A stretch of 64,000 nucleotides of DNA from Bacteroidota bacterium (GTDB lineage Bacteria; Bacteroidota; Bacteroidia; Chitinophagales; Chitinophagaceae): NCBI GenBank assembly GCA_018267955.1, contig JAFDXL010000001.1, positions 1-64,000 on the forward strand, written 5' to 3'. A model generated the notes under the pieces. The model was not told the origin of the DNA. It was given only the letters and a program-made list of their open reading frames with translations, and searched no databases. Numbering within the stretch: the stretch's first letter is position 1; each line of letters begins with the position of its first letter. Below, in pieces: positions 33,097-45,514 of the stretch. A program made the translations under genes and the position numbers.

Positions 33097-33198
33097 GTAT
33101 CTAATAAATTCAAAAATCAAAATTTAAAAGCCAAAAGCTTTTGTTTTGCGTCCCGCCGGTTGTTTTGAATTTTGACTTTTTACTTTTGATTTTTAAAA

Positions 33199-34842
33199 AT
33201 GCCACTAGACACTTCCATTAAAAGCGTACTGATCATAGGTTCCGGACCAATTATTATCGGCCAGGCCTGCGAGTTTGACTATTCCGGTTCCCAGGCTGCC
33301 CGCAGCCTTCGGGAAGAAGGGATCAAGGTGATCCTTATCAATTCCAACCCCGCAACTATTATGACAGACCCGATGATGGCAGATAAGGTGTACCTGCTAC
33401 CACTGACGGTAGAAAGCATTGAAAAAATACTGCAGGAAAACGAGATAGACGCGGTGCTGCCAACTATGGGCGGACAAACGGCCCTGAACCTTGCAAAAGA
33501 AGCAGATGAGCTGGGTATCTGGAAACAATACAATGTTCGCCTGATAGGTGTAGATATCAAGGCCATTGATAAAGCAGAAGACCGCGAGCTTTTCCGCAAA
33601 TGGATGATTGAGATAGGCGTACCGGTAGCTTCTGCAAAGACCGCTAACTCCTTGCTGGAAGGTAAAGAGTTCGCACAGGAAATAGGATTGCCTATCGTTA
33701 TCCGCCCGTCCTTCACCCTCGGTGGTACCGGTGGTGGTTTCGTGATGCATAAAGAAGAACTGGATGTAGCGCTGGAACGTGGCCTTACCGCTTCGCCGAT
33801 ACACGAAGTACTGGTAGAGCGTGCTATGCTGGGCTGGAAGGAATTTGAGCTGGAACTGCTGCGCGATAACAGGGATAATGTGGTGATCATCTGTACGGTA
33901 GAGAACTTCGACCCGATGGGCATCCACACAGGGGACAGCATCACCGTGGCGCCGGCAATGACGCTGAGCGATACAGCTTTCCAACTGATGCGTAACACAG
34001 CCATCAAAATGATGCGCGACCTCGGCAACTTCGCAGGTGGTTGTAACGTGCAGTTTGCACTGAACCCAGAAACCGAAGAGATCATCGCAATCGAGATCAA
34101 TCCTCGTGTAAGCCGCTCTTCTGCGCTGGCATCTAAAGCTACAGGTTACCCGATAGCCAAGATCGCTGCCAAGCTGGCCATAGGTTATTCGCTCGACGAG
34201 CTGAAAAACCAGATCACACAAACTACATCGGCATACTTTGAGCCTGCGCTGGACTATGTAATAGTAAAAATGCCTCGCTGGAACTTCGATAAATTCAAAG
34301 GTGCTGATGATACCCTTGGGCTACAGATGAAATCTGTAGGAGAGGTAATGTCTATCGGCCGCACGTTCCCCGAAGCATTGCAGAAAGCCTGCCAAAGCCT
34401 GGAAAATAATGCTACCGGCCTTTCTTTCCTGAGCACAGCCCGCCTGCGCCCCGAAGAATTGCTGGAGACCTTGAAGAAGCCAAAATGGGACAGGATCTTC
34501 CGCATCAAGGAAGCCATAGCTGCCGGTATATCTATTAAAACGCTCAGGGAACTGACACAGATCGACCGTTGGTTCCTGTACCAGATACAGGATATCGTAA
34601 ACCTGGAAAAACAAATCCAGGAGATCAAGCACCTGGAAAAGATGCCCGTAGAGCTGATGCGTGAAGCCAAAATAATGGGCTTCAGCGATGAGCAGATAGC
34701 AGAACTGGTAAAAGACTGTACGCCGGAAGAAGTGTACGAATTCCGTAAAAAAGCCGGTATCACCCGTGTATATAAAATGGTAGATACCTGCAGCGCAGAA
34801 TTCGAAGCTAAGACACCATATTTCTATAGTACCTTCCTTTAA
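33199..34842 (+). CDS. carB: Carbamoyl-phosphate synthase large subunit, N-terminal half (split CarB)
   Basis: The 547-residue protein equals the first half of bacterial CarB: pre-ATP-grasp domain ([18 protein letters not shown]), ATP-grasp domain with [12 protein letters not shown] (Arg near 169) and [20 protein letters not shown] (near 298), and the oligomerisation domain ending [18 protein letters not shown], where an intact CarB would continue. A normal stop follows. This half makes carboxyphosphate and carbamate from bicarbonate, ammonia and ATP. The second half is encoded at 41137-42336. carA is not in the window. The stop overlaps the next ATG by one base (TAATG). Confidence 0.95.
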
Positions 34843-35954
34843 TGGAAAATATTAAGAAGCAACCAACATTCTGGAGCAATGTCAAAGCATTGTTTTTCGG
34901 TTTGTTGGTTGCTTTGTTTTTGATAGAGCTGATACTGCGCATCTTCCACCCTTTCCCGTTCCGGGTAAAACATGGTAAGATCATACTTCCCGCCAATCAG
35001 CATATCGTACATAAAAATCCGCACAGCAATAAGCTGGAACCTGTTATCTATTACTCCCGCAATTCTTTAGGTCTGCGCGGCGAAGAGATGCCTAAGGACC
35101 CGGCAAAATGGATCAAGATCATTACCATCGGCGGCAGCACTACTGAATGTTCTTACAATAGCGATAGCCTCACCTGGCCCGAGTTATTAAAGACAGATCT
35201 GCGAAAAGAGGTGGCGCCGAATATCTGGCTCGATAATGCTGGCCTTGATGGTACCTCTACATTTGGACATATTGTTTTATTACAGGATCATATTGTAGCT
35301 CTGCATCCCGATTATGTAATATTCCTTACGGGTGTAAACGATATGGAAGAGAAAGCAATGGGCGGCTTCGATACTTACCATACCAATGAACTGGACAAGC
35401 GTAGCTTCAAAGATTATATGCGTTCGCTCATCCGTAAAACAGAAATAGGCTCGCTGTTAGAAAATATTTATCGTTATCGTATCGCCTACGAAAAAGGGTT
35501 GGTACATCGCGAAGTGAACTATGCGAAGGAGCCAAAGTTATCCATCGATAGCATTATGGTAGCAAAGCAAATCACTACGCAGCAACCATATCTGCTATCT
35601 TATCAAAAACGCATTCTCACACTTGATTCTATTTGTCGGGCAAATCATATCAAAGCTATCTTCCTTACACAACCTTCTCTGTTTGCATCTTTCAAAGATC
35701 CTGCAACAGGCCTCGATTTTACAGATATACAGGTAAGCCCCGGCCGCAATGCCTCACTGCAAGGAAAGATATTGGATGAGTACAACAATGTTTTGTTACA
35801 ACTGAAAGAAAGCCACCACCTAAACGTCGTAAACCTCGCCGCCGCCATGCCGCATGATAGCCGTTACTACTACGACTATACACACTACACATCCATCGGC
35901 ACACCTGCAGTAGCAAGAATTGTAGCAGACAGTGTAAGGCAGTATTTTAAATAA
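34842..35954 (+). CDS. Membrane-anchored SGNH/GDSL hydrolase family protein
   Basis: The 370-residue protein has one N-terminal transmembrane helix (about 14-32) and an extracytoplasmic SGNH domain. IGGSTTE carries the nucleophile Ser (near 99), LDGTS the Gly, TGVND the Asn (near 165) and YDYTHYTSIG the Asp/His pair (near 344-347). Such enzymes remove or move acyl groups on glycans or lipids. It is read from carB-N by a one-base TAATG overlap. Relatives are commonly found beside carbamoyltransferase, DUF5989 and SxtJ genes, which here lie 2.8 kb downstream. Confidence 0.88.
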   Translation: MENIKKQPTFWSNVKALFFGLLVALFLIELILRIFHPFPFRVKHGKIILPANQHIVHKNPHSNKLEPVIYYSRNSLGLRGEEMPKDPAKWIKIITIGGSTTECSYNSDSLTWPELLKTDLRKEVAPNIWLDNAGLDGTSTFGHIVLLQDHIVALHPDYVIFLTGVNDMEEKAMGGFDTYHTNELDKRSFKDYMRSLIRKTEIGSLLENIYRYRIAYEKGLVHREVNYAKEPKLSIDSIMVAKQITTQQPYLLSYQKRILTLDSICRANHIKAIFLTQPSLFASFKDPATGLDFTDIQVSPGRNASLQGKILDEYNNVLLQLKESHHLNVVNLAAAMPHDSRYYYDYTHYTSIGTPAVARIVADSVRQYFK

Positions 35955-36334: not shown

Positions 36335-37381
36335 CTACTCTTCTTCATCAAAATAGATTTTGTAAAAATGCTTGCCCGATACAGGATCATAACCTTTTTC
36401 AATCAGGTCTTTATCGCCATGTATGTAGATGTGAAAATTCCTGTCGAGCTTTAGTACACTCTTAAATACACGTGCTTGTTTTTTCACTGCCTGTGCAGAT
36501 ATATCAAATCTGTCCGGCAGGTCTATATCATGGTCTTCCCGATAAGCATCTTCAAACTTGCGGAAGGAGCGTATCATACTTTCATCACCCATCACCGTTT
36601 CTTCAAACTGCTTTTTGTCGAACGAAGTATTGGCACGGAAATACTCAACCGATTTGTTGAGCATATCTATTTGCTCCGTTTTTTCTATCTCAAATTCCTG
36701 CGGCACCTGCTTGGCAATAAATTGCTTGGCAATCGTCAGGAATTCATTCGTCTGGTAATATTCATTTGCCTGCGGAGCTATGTTCAGGAAGGTTTCGCGC
36801 CAGTACACTGCCTCTTCGCCTTTGCCATTAGTATCATAGATCAGCACATCAAATCCCTTTTCACCGTTCGTCGACAATACCAAGCAGGCTTTATCTACTT
36901 TGCTAATGTCTACACCTTGTCTCAGTGTCAATTCAAATTCTTTGTCCTCGATGTTCAGATCCAGGAAGTCAGTTTTGCTTTCCGCTTTATAAATACCTAT
37001 AGCATCTACATAAGCGCTGTTTACCACGCAGTTTTCAAACAGGCATATATATACATCGCCCGCTTTTATCTTCGGGTGTGTAGCGCTCTCGTACAGGTGT
37101 TTGGTGATGTTCACCGCATTCTTATGCAGTTCATCCGGTTCGGCAAGTGTTTCCAGGCAATAGTTATAGACCTCGTTATAGTCCAGCGAAGCGCCGTGTG
37201 TAAAAGCATACAGGTTGGTCTCGAGTTTGAACCTTCCCAGGAAGGCGTTCGCAAGTATCTTCTTTTCACGATCCTCTAGTTCCATAGGCTTCTTACTATG
37301 GATCAGTTCGTCCCCTACACTTTTATTGCCAACAAAATGTACCGATACGCTTTTGAGTGCTGCGCTGCTTAAGTCGATCAT
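36335..37381 (-). CDS. Nucleoid-associated protein (NA37/YejK-like)
   Basis: I use the ATG at 37381 (348 residues, MIDLSSAALKSVSVHFVGNK); the longer frame adds a poor leader. The sequence matches the 37-kDa nucleoid-associated family: FLGRFKLETNLYAFTHG, DVYICLFENCVVNS, DAIGIYKAESKTDFL and ISKVDKACLVLS. Such proteins bind the chromosome; their exact role is unclear, and relatives occur in some anti-phage systems. It is cytoplasmic. The gene lies on the minus strand between the two halves of the split carB locus and interrupts it. Confidence 0.82.
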   Translation of the reverse strand: MIDLSSAALKSVSVHFVGNKSVGDELIHSKKPMELEDREKKILANAFLGRFKLETNLYAFTHGASLDYNEVYNYCLETLAEPDELHKNAVNITKHLYESATHPKIKAGDVYICLFENCVVNSAYVDAIGIYKAESKTDFLDLNIEDKEFELTLRQGVDISKVDKACLVLSTNGEKGFDVLIYDTNGKGEEAVYWRETFLNIAPQANEYYQTNEFLTIAKQFIAKQVPQEFEIEKTEQIDMLNKSVEYFRANTSFDKKQFEETVMGDESMIRSFRKFEDAYREDHDIDLPDRFDISAQAVKKQARVFKSVLKLDRNFHIYIHGDKDLIEKGYDPVSGKHFYKIYFDEEE

Positions 37382-37429
37382 TGCCGCAAATATACAATGG
37401 CAGAATAAACACCGATGAAACAACGTGAT

Positions 37430-37903
37430 TTAATTACTATCTCTTGCAGGATACTGTACCAGTGCAGGAATGTCTATTCGAGTTTTACTAAATGTTATAT
37501 GTTTTCTTAATAAATGCTTTCGATCTCTGTGAACGGATACGAGAATAGAGGCACGTTTTTTTAGAATTTGTTTAGGTATGAATTGAGAATCTCTTTTGAT
37601 AAGCGTTTTAACGACGATTTCAGTTTCCCAAGAATATCTATATACACTTCTCACTGATAGATAGGAGCTTAAAAAAATTTTTTTTCTTTTAATTACAAAC
37701 GTGCCCAAACCTATCCATTCCTGACCATCATCTGATTGAGAGTATTGTTTAAAAATACCTGATTGGGAGGTTTTAGAATTTTTGTAAAAACAATACTGAT
37801 TTGACACCCACGGAGATTCTGTCTGACAATAGCACGTGGTATCTTGGCTGTATGAAACAGTGCAAACCAACATAGCAAATAGTAAGCAAACCCTAGGAAG
37901 CAT
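37430..37903 (-). CDS. Small exported protein of unknown function
   Basis: The 157-residue protein has a signal peptide (ending VSYSQ) and a Cys-containing start of the mature part (DTTCYCQTESPWVSNQYCFY). The remainder is very basic, with KKRASILVSVHRDRKHLLRKH. No family is recognised. The DNA is more AT-rich than the flanking genes, with long T runs, which may mean recent acquisition. It lies upstream of the nucleoid-associated protein gene on the same strand. Confidence 0.5.
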   Translation of the reverse strand: MLPRVCLLFAMLVCTVSYSQDTTCYCQTESPWVSNQYCFYKNSKTSQSGIFKQYSQSDDGQEWIGLGTFVIKRKKIFLSSYLSVRSVYRYSWETEIVVKTLIKRDSQFIPKQILKKRASILVSVHRDRKHLLRKHITFSKTRIDIPALVQYPARDSN

Positions 37904-37984
37904 ATCTGATTATATTATACTCTAAGTTCTAGAATCAACCTATTGAAATGATATATTTACTGGAACGGACTTCGCGAAGTAATA

Positions 37985-38500
37985 TTACAGGTTGATCCTG
38001 ATACCACCCAAAATAGAAAATAAAGCGTTATTCCCAAATGCATCGTTACGAATAAAGGTCAATCCTGGTTCTATGTTCAGGCTAATGCCCTTACTTATAC
38101 GGCCGGTATATCCTATATGTGCTCCGTACGACATCCCTTCTCCAAGAAAATAACTCAGTTCCGCCCCGGGATAGAAATAGGACTTACCTGTGCCAAACGG
38201 GAAATTGATATTTAACCCTGGCCCCAGCATTGCCTCTTTATCATTAATATAGGTAAGCATAGGCGCTATCTGTACATGATCTGCCACCCGTGCGGTATAC
38301 TGTAATTTTACAGATAGATCGGTATTGGCAATAATGAAATAGGGACCTAGGGTGATGCCCATTTCATTTGCTGCATAGGTTGCCGGTTCTTCCTTCAGGT
38401 CGTAATCGCTATAGGATGGGCGGGCTTTGGTGTGTTTTTGTGCATGAGTAACGGATGTGGCAAAAATTATAGCGAAGAGTGTTGAGATCAGGAGTTTCAT
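37985..38500 (-). CDS. Outer membrane beta-barrel protein of unknown function
   Basis: I start at the ATG at 38500 (171 residues), giving a signal peptide MKLLISTLFAIIFATSVTHA. The mature part has an alternating amphipathic strand pattern with aromatic belts (MGITLGPYFIIANTDLSVKLQYTA, shown in part as LGPYFIIANTDLSVKL) and ends in GGIRINL, a typical barrel-closing strand. About eight strands fit, as in small OmpA/OmpW-like barrels. Ligand unknown. Its start is 228 bases from the carbamoyltransferase ATG and faces away from it. Confidence 0.68.
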   Translation of the reverse strand: MKLLISTLFAIIFATSVTHAQKHTKARPSYSDYDLKEEPATYAANEMGITLGPYFIIANTDLSVKLQYTARVADHVQIAPMLTYINDKEAMLGPGLNINFPFGTGKSYFYPGAELSYFLGEGMSYGAHIGYTGRISKGISLNIEPGLTFIRNDAFGNNALFSILGGIRINL

Positions 38501-38710
38501 ATGATTGCTAAAATACCGAAATCGGCTGAAAACCGCTCCCATAGCCGTTAAATATAATATTTCACCAGTTCAGAAATTGATGGTAATTTGCATGTATAAC
38601 ACTTGTTTAAACAAAGAAAAAAAGAACAAAACGCCAAAAAGACTAGCAAAAACTAGCATTTTCTAACAAAATCTAATATCCGCAGATTCTGCTTTTTGGC
38701 ATCCGGTCTA

Positions 38711-38718
38711 TATTTTTG
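38711..38718 (+). promoter_or_regulatory. -7 element of the carbamoyltransferase operon
   Basis: TATTTTTG fits TAnnTTTG and ends 9 bases before the ATG at 38728, so the message would be almost leaderless. The upstream TTTTTGG run is closer than usual. Confidence 0.4.
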
Positions 38719-38727
38719 AATCCGTCA

Positions 38728-40584
38728 ATGAATATCCTCGGTATTTCCTGTTATTATCACGATGCTGCCGCCGCTGTAATAGTGGACGGTGTGATTGTAG
38801 CTGCGGCACAGGAAGAACGGTTCACGCGCATCAAGCACGACGAACGCTTCCCGGTGCATGCCGTTCGCTATTGCCTGGATGAGGCAGGGCTGGATATCAA
38901 CGATATAGACTTTGTAGCATTCTATGACAAGCCTCTTTTAAAGTTTGAACGCCTGCTGGAAACCTACTATGCGTTTTCTCCGAAAGGATGGATGTCGTTT
39001 ATGCGTTCCATGCCGGTATGGATCAAAGAGAAGGTATTCCTGAAAGACAATGTGCGCAAGGGTTTGAAGGAAGTCGATGAGCAGTGTAACGGCAAGCAAA
39101 AGCTGTTGTTCCCCGAGCACCATCTTTCACATGCCGCCAGTGCGTTCTACCCTTCGCCCTATAATGATGCAGCCATCCTTACCATTGATGGCGTGGGTGA
39201 ATGGTGTACCACTTCCATATGCAAGGGTTCTGGCAAGGACATTACCGTATTGAAGGAATTGCACTTCCCGCACTCGGTAGGTTTGTTATATTCTGCATTT
39301 ACCTACTTTCTTGGTTTCAAGGTCAATTCCGGTGAGTATAAGCTCATGGGGCTTGCTCCTTATGGCAACGATGGCGAAGCAGTGGAACGATATAAGAAGA
39401 TAATACTAGATCATATTTGTACGGTGTACGAAGATGGTTCTATTTTCCTCCACCAGGATTACTTCACTTACGCTACTGCACTGCGCATGGTAGATGATGC
39501 CAAATGGCAGAAGCTATTCGGTTTTCCTCGTAAAACAGAAGATGAACCATTACAGCAGCATCACTGCGATTTGGGCCTTGCCATTCAGCAGGTAACAGAA
39601 GACATAGTTATGAAGCTGGCGGCTACGGCAAAAAATCTCACCGGTAGCGATAATCTCTGCATGGCAGGCGGTGTAGCGCTCAACTGCGTAGCTAACGGCA
39701 AGCTGGGAGAAGCCGGAATATTCAAGAACATATACATACAACCCGCAGCGGGCGATGCCGGCGGTGCGGTCGGTGCGGCTTTAGCTGCTTATCATATTCA
39801 GCAGGAGCAACCGCGTACTACTATTGGTACCGATGCCATGCGTGCGGCATACCTCGGTATTGAATACACAGATAAGGAGATCGTAAAAGTGCTGAACAGG
39901 TACGATGCACCTGCAGATCATATAGAAGACGAAATACTGCTGGCAGATACGATAGCTGCAGAGATCGCGTCCGGCAAGGTGGTTGGATGGTTCCAGGGAA
40001 GGATGGAGTTTGGGCCGCGTGCCTTAGGGCACCGCAGCATCTTGGCTGACCCTCGCAACCCCGAAATGCAGAAGAAGCTGAATATCAAGATCAAGTTCCG
40101 CGAAGGTTTCCGTCCTTTTGCCCCGCTGATGTTGCAGGAAGAGGCAGAGCGTTTATTTGGTTTGCAACAGCCGTCGCCCTACATGCTGTTCGTGCATCCC
40201 ATAAAGGAGCAATACCGCAAAGCATTACCTGCCAATTATCAAAGTCTCTCCTTAATGGAAAAGCTCTATGTGCAGCGCAGCGAACTACCTGCCATTACGC
40301 ATATAGACTTCTCTGCCCGCATACAAACGGTGGCAGAAGATGCCAACCCACAGGTGTATCATTTGCTGCATGCTTTTAAAAAGCTTACAGGTTACGGGGT
40401 GTTGATCAATACTTCGTTCAATGTTCGAGGTGAGCCTATTGTTTGCAGTCCCGATGATGCCTACCGTTGTTTTATGCAAACGGATATGGATATGCTGGTA
40501 ATGGGCAATTTTGTGCTATATAAAGAAGCGCAACCTAACGCCGGTGATAAAGAAAAGTGGCAACGCCGGTTTGCAGGCGATTGA
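38728..40584 (+). CDS. Carbamoyltransferase (NodU/CmcH/TobZ family)
   Basis: I start at the ATG at 38728 (618 residues, MNILGISCYYHDAAAAVIVDG). The N-terminal Kae1-like domain holds FPEHHLSHAASAFYPSPY and ILTIDGVGEW for metal and ATP binding, and DNLCMAGGVALNCVANGK. The C-terminal YrdC-like domain holds VVGWFQGRMEFGPRALGHRS. The family moves a carbamoyl group from carbamoyl phosphate, through carbamoyl-AMP, to a hydroxyl of a sugar or natural product. DUF5989, SxtJ and carB-C genes follow directly, so its substrate supply seems encoded in the same operon. Confidence 0.95.
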   Translation: MNILGISCYYHDAAAAVIVDGVIVAAAQEERFTRIKHDERFPVHAVRYCLDEAGLDINDIDFVAFYDKPLLKFERLLETYYAFSPKGWMSFMRSMPVWIKEKVFLKDNVRKGLKEVDEQCNGKQKLLFPEHHLSHAASAFYPSPYNDAAILTIDGVGEWCTTSICKGSGKDITVLKELHFPHSVGLLYSAFTYFLGFKVNSGEYKLMGLAPYGNDGEAVERYKKIILDHICTVYEDGSIFLHQDYFTYATALRMVDDAKWQKLFGFPRKTEDEPLQQHHCDLGLAIQQVTEDIVMKLAATAKNLTGSDNLCMAGGVALNCVANGKLGEAGIFKNIYIQPAAGDAGGAVGAALAAYHIQQEQPRTTIGTDAMRAAYLGIEYTDKEIVKVLNRYDAPADHIEDEILLADTIAAEIASGKVVGWFQGRMEFGPRALGHRSILADPRNPEMQKKLNIKIKFREGFRPFAPLMLQEEAERLFGLQQPSPYMLFVHPIKEQYRKALPANYQSLSLMEKLYVQRSELPAITHIDFSARIQTVAEDANPQVYHLLHAFKKLTGYGVLINTSFNVRGEPIVCSPDDAYRCFMQTDMDMLVMGNFVLYKEAQPNAGDKEKWQRRFAGD

Positions 40585-40609
40585 TTTATTAACCCTATTT
40601 TTGAAGTGT

Positions 40610-40756
40610 ATGGAATTTTTAAAGGACTTATGGCTGTTTCTCAAAGAGCGTAAAAAATGGTGGCTTACACCCATTATAATAGCTCTGCTGTTGATAGCCG
40701 TGCTGATTATTGCTGCAAATACCGGTCTCGCGCCATTTATATATACTTTGTTCTAA
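40610..40756 (+). CDS. DUF5989 small membrane protein
   Basis: The 48-residue protein, MEFLKDLWLFLKERKKWWL then a single transmembrane helix (about 20-38) and GLAPFIYTLF, is a typical DUF5989 member. It starts 25 bases after the carbamoyltransferase stop and shares TAATG with the sxtJ-like gene. DUF5989 and SxtJ proteins accompany carbamoyltransferases in many surface-glycan and natural-product clusters, where they are thought to help place the enzyme at the membrane; the role is unproven. A longer frame start at 40511 lies inside the previous gene and is rejected. Confidence 0.85.
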   Translation: MEFLKDLWLFLKERKKWWLTPIIIALLLIAVLIIAANTGLAPFIYTLF

Positions 40757-41118
40757 TGAAAGATCTTGTAAAAAAGAAGGAGTCGATTCTTGCCATCGTA
40801 TTGGTGGGCCTGCTGCTCTACTTTATTACAAAGAAACTGCCGATACTGTATGTGGCTTTTACAATAGGCATCCTGGGGCTGGCTTCTTCGGCTTTTGCAG
40901 GTTTTATGCACAAATGGTGGGGCATGCTCACAGGGGTTATAGGAAAAATTAATAATATAGTATTTCTAACCCTAATTTATTGGGTGGTTTTAACCCCTGT
41001 TGCCTTCCTGATGCGGCTCTCGGGCAAATCCGGGGTGACCCTAAAAAAGCCGGTTGGCAGTAATTTTAAAATTCGCGACCATCTTTTTACAAAAAACGAC
41101 CTCAATAATCCTTGGTAG
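40756..41118 (+). CDS. SxtJ family membrane protein
   Basis: The true start is the ATG at 40756 (120 residues, MKDLVKKKESILAIVLVGLL). Three transmembrane helices are predicted (about 11-30, 33-50, 70-90), then a cytoplasmic tail GVTLKKPVGSNFKIRDHLF. SxtJ proteins are named from saxitoxin clusters and pair with DUF5989 and carbamoyltransferase proteins. The one-base overlap with the DUF5989 gene and 18-base gap to carB-C suggest one operon. Confidence 0.85.
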   Translation: MKDLVKKKESILAIVLVGLLLYFITKKLPILYVAFTIGILGLASSAFAGFMHKWWGMLTGVIGKINNIVFLTLIYWVVLTPVAFLMRLSGKSGVTLKKPVGSNFKIRDHLFTKNDLNNPW

Positions 41119-41136
41119 TCATTAACTTTGCTGCTC

Positions 41137-42336
41137 ATGAGTTCGTCGTCTTCCATTCTGTTCAACGAATCAATCCCTGGTAATAAGAAGAAAATAATTG
41201 TATTGGGTTCAGGACCCAATAGAATCGGGCAGGGTATTGAGTTCGATTATTGCTGCACACACGGCCTGATGGCCATTAAGGAGTGCGGTTATGAGGCCAT
41301 TATGGTCAATTGTAATCCTGAAACGGTATCGACCGATTTCGATATAGCCGACAAGCTATATTTCGAACCGGTGTACTGGGAACATCTCTGGGAAATCATA
41401 GAGCATGAGCAACCTTATGGTGTAATCGTTCAGCTGGGTGGTCAAACAGCCCTGAAACTGGCTAAAAAGCTCCACGAAAAAGGCATCCGCATCATCGGTA
41501 CTTCCTTTGATGATATGGATATTGCCGAAGATCGCGGCCGCTTCAGTGATATGCTGAAAGACCTGGGCATTCCTTATCCTAAATACGGTACGGCATACAC
41601 TACTGATGAAGCTATCGAAGTAGCTAAGGAAGTAGGTTACCCGGTACTGGTACGCCCTTCTTATGTACTGGGCGGTCAGAGGATGCGTATCGTTATTAAT
41701 GACGAAGAATTGGAAAAAGGTGTGATCAGCTTGCTGAAGCACCTGCCTAATAACAAGATACTGATCGACCACTTCCTGGATCGTTGCCAGGAGGCGGAAG
41801 TGGATGCTATCTGCGATGGCGAAGAGGTGCATATCATGGGTATCATGGAGCACATAGAGCCGGCAGGTATTCACAGCGGCGATAGCCACGCTTTGCTCCC
41901 TTGCTTCAACTTGGGGCCGCTGGTGATAGAAGAAATGGCCGATATCGCCCGCAAAATAGCACTGAAACTGAATGTTCGTGGGTTGATCAACATCCAGTAT
42001 GCCATCAAAGATGGCAAGGTATATGTGATAGAAGCCAATCCGCGTGCCAGCCGCACTACGCCTTTCATCGCTAAGGCTTACGGCATCCCTTACCTCAATG
42101 TTGCTACCAAAGTGATGCTGGGTGAGAAGAAGCTGAAAGACTTCAAACTGGAGAAGAAACTGGAAGGGTATGCTGTGAAAGAACCGGTGTTCAGCTTCAA
42201 TAAATTCCCTAACGTAAACAAAGAGTTAGGCCCTGAAATGAAGAGTACAGGTGAGGCCATCCGCTTTATCAAAGACCTGCGTGACCCTTGGTTCAGGCAG
42301 CTTTATAAAGAACGAAGCATGCACCTGAGTAAATAA
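41137..42336 (+). CDS. carB: Carbamoyl-phosphate synthase large subunit, C-terminal half (split CarB), no MGS domain
   Basis: The ATG at 41137 gives 399 residues. Pre-ATP-grasp motif IIVLGSGPNRIGQGIEFDYC corresponds to about residue 560 of an intact CarB. The ATP-grasp domain has RPSYVLGGQRMRIV and VIEANPRASRTTPFIAK. It phosphorylates carbamate to carbamoyl phosphate. The protein ends at LYKERSMHLSK, where the roughly 130-residue MGS regulatory domain of enterobacterial CarB would begin. It is the last gene of the carbamoyltransferase operon and must pair with the N-half at 33199-34842. An IS1595-type element starts 25 bases after its stop. Confidence 0.95.
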   Translation: MSSSSSILFNESIPGNKKKIIVLGSGPNRIGQGIEFDYCCTHGLMAIKECGYEAIMVNCNPETVSTDFDIADKLYFEPVYWEHLWEIIEHEQPYGVIVQLGGQTALKLAKKLHEKGIRIIGTSFDDMDIAEDRGRFSDMLKDLGIPYPKYGTAYTTDEAIEVAKEVGYPVLVRPSYVLGGQRMRIVINDEELEKGVISLLKHLPNNKILIDHFLDRCQEAEVDAICDGEEVHIMGIMEHIEPAGIHSGDSHALLPCFNLGPLVIEEMADIARKIALKLNVRGLINIQYAIKDGKVYVIEANPRASRTTPFIAKAYGIPYLNVATKVMLGEKKLKDFKLEKKLEGYAVKEPVFSFNKFPNVNKELGPEMKSTGEAIRFIKDLRDPWFRQLYKERSMHLSK

Positions 42337-42438: not shown

Positions 42439-43173
42439 TTACTTTGCTGTAAAAGTAAAGCTTTGATTATTTGTAAATGGTAATGTTACTCCATAATTCC
42501 ATATTGTACCATCTGCTGATTCTAATCTAATATTTGAGTTACTAAATGCTTTATAATAGCCAATATTATATACAGTCCCATTATTAGGAATAATTACATT
42601 ATCAAAAGATTGATTTGCTAATCCATAGTTCACATATATCTTAGTTATTTGTTTGGCGCTTACATTGGCAATTTTTAAGAAAAACATTGTGTTATCTACA
42701 TTTATGTTAACAGTAGACGTTCCTGATGCTGGGAAAAAACCACTTAAATCCCAGCTAACTTTTAATCCAACTTGAATATTATTGCTTGTTTTGCCGCTTG
42801 TAGTAGCAGTCCCAACTATTTTAGTATTTGCTATATCGGTAAATGAAGCACTGCTTCCAAAAGGAATAGTTTTATTATTCCCATTGACGGTAATAGCTAT
42901 ATCGGTAAATGAAGCATTCTTATAAAGAACAATTGAGTTAGTTTGTTGTTGCCCATTATTACCATTATTGCTTCCATTATTTATTTCACAAAAGGTTCCA
43001 GAGAAACCTGAGGGACATTTACAGGCACCATTTAAACAAGCACCTCCATTTTGACAAGTAATCCGGGAACAATTATCTTCTTTATTACAGGAATTGAATA
43101 AAACAGAAGAAAAAGTAATAGCTATTATTAAGCCAGTAAAAAAAGCCTTTTTGAAATTGATTTTGTTATTCAT
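42439..43173 (-). CDS. Lipoprotein with EGF-like domain carried by the IS element
   Basis: The 244-residue protein has a lipoprotein signal (SSVLFNSC). Six cysteines at about residues 34-62 (CSRITCQNGGACLNGACKC then SGFSGTFC) make an EGF-like domain. An Asn/Gly-rich linker (NNGSNNGNNG) and a beta-rich C-terminal region follow, with two related segments, KNASFTDIAITVNG and GSSASFTDIANTKI. EGF-like domains are unusual in bacteria, and here one is transposon cargo. It is probably exposed on the cell surface and could bind protein or glycan. Function unknown. Confidence 0.75.
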   Translation of the reverse strand: MNNKINFKKAFFTGLIIAITFSSVLFNSCNKEDNCSRITCQNGGACLNGACKCPSGFSGTFCEINNGSNNGNNGQQQTNSIVLYKNASFTDIAITVNGNNKTIPFGSSASFTDIANTKIVGTATTSGKTSNNIQVGLKVSWDLSGFFPASGTSTVNINVDNTMFFLKIANVSAKQITKIYVNYGLANQSFDNVIIPNNGTVYNIGYYKAFSNSNIRLESADGTIWNYGVTLPFTNNQSFTFTAK

Positions 43174-43190
43174 TGTGGTATTTTGAAGTG
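43174..43190. repeat. Direct-repeat copy next to the IS hairpin
   Basis: TGTGGTATTTTGAAGTG (43174-43190) recurs with one change at 43323-43339 and, inverted, at 43225-43242. It directly abuts the start codon of the EGF lipoprotein gene. Confidence 0.75.
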
Positions 43191-43223
43191 ATTAAAAAAG
43201 AATGACGCAACCGAAAATCTTTT

Positions 43224-43341
43224 GCCACTTCAGGGATACCACTCCCTTCCCGATACAAAAGCACGGCTGCGCCACTGTGGGCGCATTAGTACAAAACTTG
43301 TATCGGAATAGCTGCGTATTGATGTGGTATTTCGAAGTGGC
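43224..43341. ncRNA. Large noncoding hairpin (possible structured RNA or recombination site)
   Basis: GCCACTTC and ATACCAC (43224-43242) pair with GTGGTAT and GAAGTGGC (43324-43341). CCGATACAA (43250-43258) pairs with TTGTATCGG (43298-43306). A separate hairpin TGCGCC-ACTGTG-GGCGCA (43268-43285) sits at the tip. The stretch is more GC-rich than the rest of the element and non-coding, and lies between the EGF and P63C genes. Transcription is not shown; it may equally be a DNA site. Confidence 0.55.
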
Positions 43342-43468
43342 AGCTTTGATGTAATACGTTATCTTATATTATTTCATAGGCGTAATTTTAGTTTTTAAGT
43401 GAGTATATTTTTAAAAAAATGGTCTTCCATTTATATACAAGGACAAACTTATAAAATTGGGTTTACTA

Positions 43469-44503
43469 TTATTCTTCTTTCTTATCTTTTGGATTATAGT
43501 CCAATGCCTTACTCAACTTAATATTAAAATCAGATAAATTTTCAAGCTTTTGAGCAGGCTCTTTTGTATGTCCTTTTTCATCGAACTGGAATGGTATTTC
43601 AATTTGTCCCATTTGCCTTTGTTTTAATTTGGCAAATTGAGCCCACATATGTTCCATTGTATCGGATAATTGAAAAAGAGTAATAATTTGCTGGATTTGT
43701 GCCGTAAGATGCGGGTTGCCAGTATCGGGAGTTAAACTTTGGAAAAATCTTGCCGTATAATTTCCTGCTTCACTTTTTGGCGTTACGGTTTTAAGTTCTT
43801 TTAAAACGCCTTGGGGGAGCTGTTCATATACTAGTTTATTAGTCCATGTACCTATAACACCAGGGCGCTTTTTTATCCCATTTACTGTAAAATCCCATCC
43901 ATTAAGTCTGAATAATTCTTTGTAAAAAATATCAGGGAATTTCTTTTGCCAAGGCAGCAATTCCTCAGATATATAAGCTTTGAGAATTTTTTGTAATTCA
44001 TCCCTTTCTCTATTATATTGATATCCTGTCGCTTCATCAATTAAAGCAATTATACCAACTGTAGCAAATCCCCTTACTAGCAATTCACATCTTTCAGCTA
44101 TTGCCTTTTGATTTGTTGTTAATACATTTTGCTTGGCGGCATCAAGGAATACATAACATACACTTGGCAAAATATCTGCATTATATCCATATAATTTTTG
44201 ACCGCCATTTGTTTCAAAAACTATAGTTTGCGAAGACGCTAATAACGAATTGGAAATGAATGGTTTAAGATTCTTTGCGCTTAAAAAAAGTGGAGTTGTG
44301 AAGACCTGATTATCCCCCTCCGTTGATAATTCTTCCTTATATTTAGGTTTGCCGGTGCGCCCTAATGCACGCAACAAACCTTCTCTACTTAAAACCCTTT
44401 CTCCAGTTTCTAAATTATAGCACTTAAATTTAAAGCCATCAATATTTATTTCACCAGAATGGGTTGCTTTCGGCAATTCAGTCTTCTTGTGCTTTGAGTT
44501 CAT
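43469..44503 (-). CDS. P63C domain-containing protein (IS passenger)
   Basis: The 344-residue protein matches the P63C domain: GERVLSREGLLRALGRTGK, YGYNADILPSVCYVFLDAAK, and RERDELQKILKAYISEELLPW and FYKELFRLNGWDF further on. P63C proteins are found in phages and mobile elements; their function is unknown, though a DNA or recombination role is often assumed. The start overlaps the transposase stop by ATGA, so both are likely made from one message. The C-terminal third is rich in Gln and Lys. No catalytic residues can be assigned. Confidence 0.82.
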   Translation of the reverse strand: MNSKHKKTELPKATHSGEINIDGFKFKCYNLETGERVLSREGLLRALGRTGKPKYKEELSTEGDNQVFTTPLFLSAKNLKPFISNSLLASSQTIVFETNGGQKLYGYNADILPSVCYVFLDAAKQNVLTTNQKAIAERCELLVRGFATVGIIALIDEATGYQYNRERDELQKILKAYISEELLPWQKKFPDIFYKELFRLNGWDFTVNGIKKRPGVIGTWTNKLVYEQLPQGVLKELKTVTPKSEAGNYTARFFQSLTPDTGNPHLTAQIQQIITLFQLSDTMEHMWAQFAKLKQRQMGQIEIPFQFDEKGHTKEPAQKLENLSDFNIKLSKALDYNPKDKKEE

Positions 44504-45429
44504 TTTATAAGTGTTTTATAAGTTAAACGATTTGTGCAATGTGAAAGTAACATATTAAAACGGCTGCATTCTGAATGTGTACGGCTATTATATCTGAAAG
44601 AAAGCTCATTAGCATATTTCTGCATATGCTTTGGACTAATATAATGATAGGTTCCTATCACCATTCTATCAAACATGGAGAAAACGCCTTCGATGCTATT
44701 AGTATGAATGGTATCACGTACATATTCTTTCTTGCCGTGATCTACTGTTTCATGTGCTGCAAAAAACTTATGTGCATAATTGTAGGCATTAGACAGGTCG
44801 GTTATCAAAACAGAATCGGAGCTAACGTTTTCCCTTACTGATTGCAAAATGCCGCCCTTATCAACCAATTGCAGCTTTACTTTTCCACCCCTCACTAAAT
44901 AACCCATAACCATGTGCTTGTTATCGTTTGCGCCTTTAGCACCAATTGCTTTGCGTTTTTTATGGGTCATGTTTTTCATTTTGCCACCCACATAGGTTTC
45001 GTCTACCTCAACGATTTGACCGCCACCACCCAACTTGCCATCTTCATTCTCTGTATCTGTAATGCCAAAGCAGTTACGGATACGTTGCGCCATAAACCAA
45101 GCGGTTTTTTGCGTTACGTTTAAATCCTTAGCAAGCTGTAAAGAAGATATGCCTTTCTTATGTCCAGTTAGCAAATAGATAGCTACAAACCATGTTTGCA
45201 GTTCTATCTTGGTATTATCAAACAGTGTGGCGGTGCGAACATTGAAGTATTTACCAGTATTTTTGCACTTGTATTTATTCCCTGCGCACTTGTAAACTTT
45301 AGAAGTAGCATAAAAAGGAGAAACAACTACACCATTCCAGCGTAGTTGTTCCAAATGATCTATACAAACTTGTTCGTTAGGGAAAGCCTTAACTAATTCT
45401 ATGATGGAGTTAAAATCTAAATTTATCAT
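44500..45429 (-). CDS. IS1595 family transposase (ISXO2-like)
   Basis: I start at the ATG at 45429 (309 residues). The N-terminal zinc-ribbon-like part has YKCAGNKYKCKNTGKYFNVRT, followed by a helix-turn-helix (SSLQLAKDLNVTQKTAWFMAQRIRN, shown in part as LAKDLNVTQKTAWFMAQRI). The ISXO2-like catalytic domain has VEVDETYVGGKMKN with the first Asp, LITDLSNAY with the second and TIHTNSIEGVFSMFDRM with the Asn/Glu part. It mobilises the element by cut and paste or copy in. No frameshift or stop is present, so it looks functional. Confidence 0.95.
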   Translation of the reverse strand: MINLDFNSIIELVKAFPNEQVCIDHLEQLRWNGVVVSPFYATSKVYKCAGNKYKCKNTGKYFNVRTATLFDNTKIELQTWFVAIYLLTGHKKGISSLQLAKDLNVTQKTAWFMAQRIRNCFGITDTENEDGKLGGGGQIVEVDETYVGGKMKNMTHKKRKAIGAKGANDNKHMVMGYLVRGGKVKLQLVDKGGILQSVRENVSSDSVLITDLSNAYNYAHKFFAAHETVDHGKKEYVRDTIHTNSIEGVFSMFDRMVIGTYHYISPKHMQKYANELSFRYNSRTHSECSRFNMLLSHCTNRLTYKTLIK

Positions 45430-45514
45430 TCCTATCAATGTTTGATAAAACAAAGATAAGTAGATAATTACACCATCCCAAATTTATTTAGTGTAAAATT
45501 GTATATAGTTACCC

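Follow-up and report, generated by a model that had tools for sequence, protein, structure and literature searches.

Carbamoyl phosphate is a labile metabolite shared by pyrimidine and arginine synthesis, and O-carbamoylation pathways have to secure a share of it as well. Among the systems closest to the one reported here, a carbamoyl phosphate synthetase (CPS) split between separate chains is known from Aquifex (PMC6022934); carbamoyltransferases (CTs) of the CmcH/NodU class are described in the same source as using carbamoyl phosphate and ATP by way of a carbamoyl-adenylate; and in saxitoxin clusters sxtI, sxtJ and the 165-nt sxtK stand side by side, SxtI being reported to work with SxtJ and SxtK (PMC2679770). 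Here we describe a locus in the window JAFDXL010000001.1, positions 1-64,000 (the whole 64,000-nt stretch that was analyzed, from a Chitinophagaceae genome designated G000), in which carB is cut in two and carbamoylation genes lie in the gap, a layout that recurs in relatives.

The locus has something in common with each of these systems and departs from each. Both halves of the window's CarB align over their full length with E. coli CarB, and E299/N301/R303 and E841/N843/R845, which we take to have functional roles, are retained; unlike E. coli CarB, it is encoded by two genes and has no allosteric domain. The two synthetase units have separate, intact genes and may assemble from separate chains as in Aquifex aeolicus. 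The passages on the Aquifex CPS mention no carbamoyltransferase cassette, and unlike in that account, split and fused CarB alternate here within one family, even within one genus. On the carbamoylation side, the CT has the full-length, two-domain form of TobZ, GdmN, NovN and SxtI, and, much as SxtI is accompanied by SxtJ and SxtK, it has two small membrane partners, DUF5989 and SxtJ. SxtK may itself be a DUF5989 protein, to judge by length, with sxtK about the size of a DUF5989 gene. The cassette of the window lies inside carB, whereas the passages on the saxitoxin cluster (PMC2679770) name neither carA nor carB. An earlier sequence-only reading of this DNA knew of no described system of the kind, and our searches of open-licence papers likewise turned up no title, abstract opening or cited passage describing such a layout.

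Results

The N-terminal half, carB-N (33199..34842, plus strand; 547 aa; CPSase D1, D2 and D3 by Pfam/NCBIfam; terminus YFYSTFL-stop), aligns with residues 1-547 of E. coli CarB (1bxr; E 1.2e-246) and comprises the carboxyphosphate ATP-grasp and the oligomerisation domain. The other half, carB-C (41137..42336, plus strand, with its ATG at 41137; 399 aa), aligns with residues 558-919 (E 2.1e-189) and is the carbamoyl-phosphate ATP-grasp half. Because the halves match 1-547 and 558-919, the break must lie within the linker that joins the two synthetase (ATP-grasp) units, and both units and the oligomerisation domain of CarB are present, as two proteins. The allosteric MGS-like domain of CarB is dispensable for catalysis. 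In E. coli it occupies residues 937-1073 (PMC6245113); carB-C has no Pfam match to it and its frame stops short of it, and the fused relatives in the family, with frames of ~940-1010 aa, also lack it as judged from frame length.

Judged by dN/dS, both carB halves are under strong purifying selection. Among 7 split members of the genus of G000 (hereafter g1), values range from 0.013 to 0.068 for carB-N (one pair saturated) and from 0.003 to 0.036 for carB-C (several pairs saturated at synonymous sites), and they resemble those of fused carB genes. An artefact or a pseudogene is excluded by the strong purifying selection, seen in 7 of the 10 split members, and by the lack of an internal stop in any g1 half seen (in G012 the C half is in two contig pieces and the N half was not found). 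A search of the G000 genome found no second carB, fused copy included, and for this genome that excludes halves that are spare copies beside a full gene. One carA, on another contig, scores over the family cut-off.

Immediately downstream of carB-N is a gene for an SGNH/GDSL hydrolase with one N-terminal transmembrane (TM)-like segment (34842..35954, plus strand), whose ATG and the carB-N stop have one base in common, an overlap that the sequence-only reading had pointed out. The gene order that it gave for 38728-42336, CT-DUF5989-SxtJ-carB-C with one-base or short gaps, is likewise correct. The first of these genes encodes an O-carbamoyltransferase of the CmcH/NodU/TobZ type (38728..40584, plus strand), which covers PF02543 and PF16861 (Carbam_trans_N and Carbam_trans_C) over almost the full profiles and matches the structures of GdmN (7vyj, E 3e-90) and TobZ (3ver, E 4e-76), with a match to NovN as well; HHxxH is invariant in an alignment of 7 nested CTs. 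It is followed after 25 nt by DUF5989 (40610..40756, plus strand; 48 aa; PF19451; one TM-like segment), which shares one base with a gene of the SxtJ family (40756..41118, plus strand; 120 aa; PF19588 at 29.0 bits, cut-off 24.4; three TM-like segments), and carB-C begins 18 nt further on. CT, DUF5989 and SxtJ are neighbours on one strand in G000, and among 80 named CT loci (the best 80 of at least 560 confirmed matches) DUF5989 is found in 70 and SxtJ in 70. By simple hydropathy, CT, carB-N and carB-C have no TM-like segment.

That the cassette lies inside carB follows from the outer flanks. Fifteen g1 genomes were searched and carB was found in 14, split in 10 and fused in 4 (G001, G003, G005 and G014). 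The fused carB of G005, G014 and G001 comes after mreC-mreB-LVa-LVb, and is followed by GNAT-TonB-thioesterase-M16 in G005 and by TonB-thioesterase-M16 in G014, while the G001 contig stops inside carB. The window and two other split members, G010 and G011, share the G005-type flanks, and between their carB halves lies the cassette. Since these flanks match those of members with an intact gene, the cassette is inside carB. Hence the association put forward in the sequence-only reading, of carB halves built into a carbamoylation module, stands with its direction reversed: it is the module that sits inside carB.

All 9 N halves seen in g1 terminate in STFL-stop, a uniformity that points to one fission within the genus. 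In 6 of the 9 split members with a visible N half, the gene that follows carB-N is SGNH. The distance from SxtJ to the carB-C downstream of it is no more than ~60 nt in 7 of the 10 split members and ~1 kb in G008 and G002; in G008, CT is near carB-N and DUF5989-SxtJ near carB-C. No CT, SxtJ or SGNH of this type was found in any of the 4 fused members (G001 is 84% complete). As for marks of insertion, the two junctions show no direct repeat, and a 16-nt pair ~65-85 nt inside each end resembles chance.

A second, unlinked carbamoyltransferase is encoded in G000 (G000:C6:109212-110933; 41% identity), and all 10 split members of g1, as well as G006, have such a second CT at 40-43% identity, which none of the 4 fused members has. 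G006 itself, listed as 100% complete, has no carB-C match at E <= 1e-60 and no SxtJ, a possible loss of carbamoyl-phosphate synthase.

Outside g1, the arrangement of carB-N, then CT-DUF5989-SxtJ with SGNH, then carB-C recurs in two further genera (g99 and g43) and in a metagenome-assembled genome, L231 (Bacteroidetes bacterium isolate SZAS CTRL-17, JAFEAB010000042.1). Four of the five g99 genomes have carB-N, SGNH, CT, DUF5989, SxtJ and carB-C in this order, with a second SGNH after CT in G112, where SxtJ and carB-C are less than 100 nt apart; the fifth, G188, has the cassette on carB-N only, with carB-C elsewhere. The g43 genome G056 has a tight array of carB-N, SGNH, CT, DUF5989, SxtJ and carB-C (gaps of 3, -4, 52, 0 and 17 nt), and in L231 the order is carB-N, CT, SGNH, DUF5989, SxtJ, carB-C (2, -8, 3, 1 and 4 nt). 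In g99, L231 and G056 the gene ComEC is found beyond carB-C (8.6 kb off in the last), and it is also near the fused carB of several family members, so these loci are probably at one ancestral site; the g1 nested locus is at the mreB site instead. The conservation in relatives on which the sequence-only reading staked its case is therefore borne out, within g1 by the 7 of 10 split members with SxtJ near carB-C and beyond it by g99, G056 and L231.

Beyond the nested loci, carA or carB is also found beside CT in L201, L208, L234 and G331. In G331 (L248:5746-11694), of a distant family in the same phylum, a fused carB (1153 aa frame) ends 12 nt before CT, and SxtJ-like and DUF5989 genes are downstream of CT. 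In L201 (Balneolales), carA-carB is divergent from SxtJ-DUF5989-CT. Two Verrucomicrobia complete the series: in L234, CT, DUF5989, carA and the start of carB are on one strand, and in L208, CT is followed on the same strand by the ~120 first residues of a carA-like gene.

Counted over the 79 named CT loci outside g1 (the best 80 minus L163, a g1 member), carA or carB at E <= 1e-20 is present in 6: L201, L208, L231 and L234, close to the cassette and from three lineages, and L172 and L222, ~4.5 kb and ~7.7 kb off. A carB-like match in L239 (22%) was left uncounted. At the same threshold, 18 control genes gave 7 matches in total over the 79 loci, 4 of them MsrB in Balneolaceae records. Among 23 family CT loci, carB is present in 2 and controls in 0, a count that is not independent because both carB-bearing loci were fetched for carB.

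Split carB is common in the family and mostly cassette-free. The carB-C search covered 294 family genomes, of which 277 have a match at E <= 1e-100, and carB is split (frame <500 aa) in 68 of the best-scoring 150 of these 277 (read by eye; three at contig ends). The halves are adjacent in some family genomes and far apart in others, and fused and split forms coexist within one genus, as in g98 (G239 split, G283 fused). By Pfam search at least 30 of the 294 are SxtJ-positive, a lower bound because the search missed G007 and G012, both SxtJ-bearing by direct comparison. In eight of the 30, carB is split, and in every one of these the cassette adjoins one of the halves, though they come from three genera or lineages only; 19 have a fused carB, on another contig or more than 1 Mb away, with no carB nearby in the cassette stretches of 17 of them; and 3 have no carB match.

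A carB tree of 85 rows has at least 10 changes between fused and split, 7 of them forced by starred branches. The label "cassette between halves" requires 5 changes on it, all forced by starred branches (g1, g99, G056 and L231, and a loss in G013), with G188 labelled as a carrier even though its carB-C is elsewhere. The SGNH proteins of g1, g99 and G056 form one clade (98/94), and that of L231 groups with the free-standing SGNH of G200 (100/99). The CT trees, built on chosen subsets of 44, 43 and 26 rows, differ in detail: in the 43-row tree a branch of support 66 has all the nested CTs to one side of it, and in two others they are not so grouped. With 26 rows, L231 groups with g1 (100/99, on a long branch) and G056 with g99 (96/95); a single clade of g1, g99 and G056 is not rejected (p 0.239), and L231 with G200 is rejected (p 0.004). 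With 44 rows, g99 falls with the bulk of the sequences (99/94), apart from g1 and L231, and a single g1 and g99 clade is not rejected (AU p 0.178). Another CT tree has L231 beside G032 (support 88). G012 was left out of the carB trees, G037 out of all trees, and G059 and G204 out of the 43-row CT tree; G015 and G129, in which the C half is cut by a stop at the edge of the match, were left out of the first carB tree and read with X in the second.

On these trees the cassettes look mosaic. The nested cassettes may share a source, yet they occupy carB genes of four different lineages, and the trees would fit a single ancient insertion followed by frequent loss, lateral spread into the linker, or several insertions made independently. 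In carB columns 480-540 the cassette carriers resemble one another slightly more: compared with identity over the remainder of the protein, the average is -12.1 in carriers, -14.2 in split and -16.3 in fused genes; no conclusion is drawn about cassette transfer through carB homology arms, because the cassette-free split genomes share half the effect.

The motif TAnnTTTG, which we take to be the Bacteroidota -7 promoter element, stands on the plus strand 10 nt before carB-N (33181..33188), 9 nt before CT (38711..38718), 6 nt before DUF5989 (40596..40603) and 6 nt before carB-C (41123..41130; TAACTTTG). It occurs 55 times on both strands of the window, a chance of ~2% per 60-nt stretch. Of 43 window genes picked for clear ATG starts, 14 have it in the 60 nt before the start, and 0.5% of random 18-nt segments contain it. 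These boxes are consensus matches and, as such, putative promoters.

Two further stretches adjoin the cassette and carB-C. The 2.8 kb between the SGNH end and the CT start contains three minus-strand genes (36335-38542): one for an NA37 nucleoid-associated protein (36335-37423) and two without a family name (37430-37903 and 37985-38542). This trio differs from relative to relative and is outside the recurrent cassette. On the other side, between carB-C and the GNAT gene, 42439-45453 contains two genes, presumably for an EGF-like and a P63C-like protein, and an IS1595 transposase; because GNAT directly adjoins carB-C in G010 (L035), this stretch looks like a recent insertion beside carB.

Discussion

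We favor, at about even confidence, the explanation that an O-carbamoylation cassette (CT, DUF5989 and SxtJ, with SGNH) is nested in a two-subunit CarB and is kept because supply and use of carbamoyl phosphate are co-expressed. It draws on gene order, the matching outer flanks, the strong purifying selection under which both halves stand, and the finding of the layout again in three further lineages, all read from sequence, and these hint at a linked making and using of carbamoyl phosphate. The CarB of the window would act as two separate subunits with a single CarA, as in Aquifex, and would supply carbamoyl phosphate to pyrimidines, arginine and the cassette, that is, to the whole cell. From carbamoyl phosphate and ATP, the CT would make a carbamoyl-adenylate and transfer the carbamoyl group to a hydroxyl group on a glycan, lipid or small molecule, with DUF5989 and SxtJ as small membrane-protein helpers, and the SGNH enzyme would perhaps edit the product. 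Most likely the layout recurs since supply and use of a labile intermediate come in this way under linked expression; the coupling would be tight in the arrays of G056 and L231, and looser, with carB-C under a box of its own, in g1.

This is a good deal less than the supply line of the sequence-only reading, of which the conserved, recurrent arrangement stands and the "dedicated" supply is not supported. With no other carB found in G000, this carB must feed pyrimidines and arginine too, and in G013 carB is still split where no cassette was found. Among the cassette carriers, one exception to the single-carB pattern was seen, G317 (G317:C3:176571-178199, L086), which has a split carB with the cassette and a second, fused carB (940 aa frame, 70% identity to carB-N).

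Several observations weigh against co-expression as the reason for the layout. The sequence-only reading had counted separate promoters before carB-C as contrary to its own proposal, and every one of the 10 split g1 members has a TAnnTTTG box, a putative promoter, 6 nt ahead of carB-C (read by eye), including those with another upstream gene. G056 and G112 have the box too, and L231 does not. Proximity is loose in places: the halves are 73-108 kb apart in G002, G004, G007, G008, G009 and G013, and carB-C is 1.7-3.5 kb past SxtJ in three of four g99 genomes. Searches of G013 (91% complete; halves split) gave no SxtJ, no SGNH and no CT of this type; NA37, which is inside the insert in the window, comes there directly after carB-N and points to loss of the cassette. 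Fused G003 has mreC-mreB upstream, and its other flank genes were not seen. The linkage is also rare. The 31 other split family genomes with halves fetched (outside g1, g99 and G056) have no cassette gene beside either half; the cassette is away from a fused carB in 19 of the 27 SxtJ genomes with a carB match; and in a wider sample of 68 of the 134 CT-positive phylum genomes besides G000 (the 67 best and G192) together with 12 SxtJ-positive family genomes, 66 of these 80 had a carB match and only G056 and G331 are carB-linked. G192 is split and CT-positive, with the two on different contigs.

From these same facts comes a serious rival, namely that a fission-prone linker merely holds the cassette. 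On this view a linker that can withstand fission received the cassette, by landing or by spread between relatives, and the genes are neighbors only because they were never removed, a history without function that we consider quite possible, short of an even chance. The 10 or more fused/split changes on the 85-row tree indicate that fission is frequent anyway, most split lineages are cassette-free, and carB-C has its own box; moreover, the SGNH clade of g1, g99 and G056 (98/94) and the CT grouping of L231 with g1 (100/99, long branch) may reflect a shared source rather than repeated selection. What such a history leaves unexplained is carA or carB near CT in the unrelated L201, L208, L234 and G331, where fission is irrelevant, and the close gene packing in G056 and L231.

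One ancient insertion, which is a matter of history only and fits any functional reading, would put the cassette in the carB of the family ancestor, with loss in most descendants, after which some lineages re-fused carB and others kept dispersed halves. Such a history would account for the abundance of split carB, and the SGNH tree, which sets g1 against G056 and g99, agrees with the division of the carB tree into two halves. Many exact in-frame re-fusions would be required, however, the cassette label needs 5 changes on the carB tree, all forced by starred branches, and the L231 SGNH groups with the free-standing G200 (100/99). We rate a single ancient insertion as rather unlikely.

A physical supply line, in which split CarB binds CT, SxtJ and DUF5989 at the membrane, hands over carbamoyl phosphate and serves carbamoylation first, is improbable. 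Gene adjacency fits such a complex, as does the lability of carbamoyl phosphate, which passages in PMC6022934 describe as channelled to other transcarbamylases in some organisms; and with its second, fused carB, G317 has a split pair that could be specialised. Against it, no other carB was found in G000, neither CT nor either carB half has a TM-like segment, and split halves and fused genes have similar dN/dS. Equally doubtful is a repeatedly selected nested unit, with a cassette passed between relatives into the same linker and CarB halves that dock with CT and its membrane partners, handing over carbamate or carbamoyl phosphate before it decays.

For the co-expression of supply and use that we favor, carbamoylation genes inside or beside carbamoyl phosphate genes are a concrete place to test such coupling. 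For the biology of CarB, the locus means that the gene of a core enzyme can be broken at a domain border, can hold a cassette and can stay selected as two genes, and within this one family fused, split and cassette-bearing forms of CarB can be compared as a natural series.

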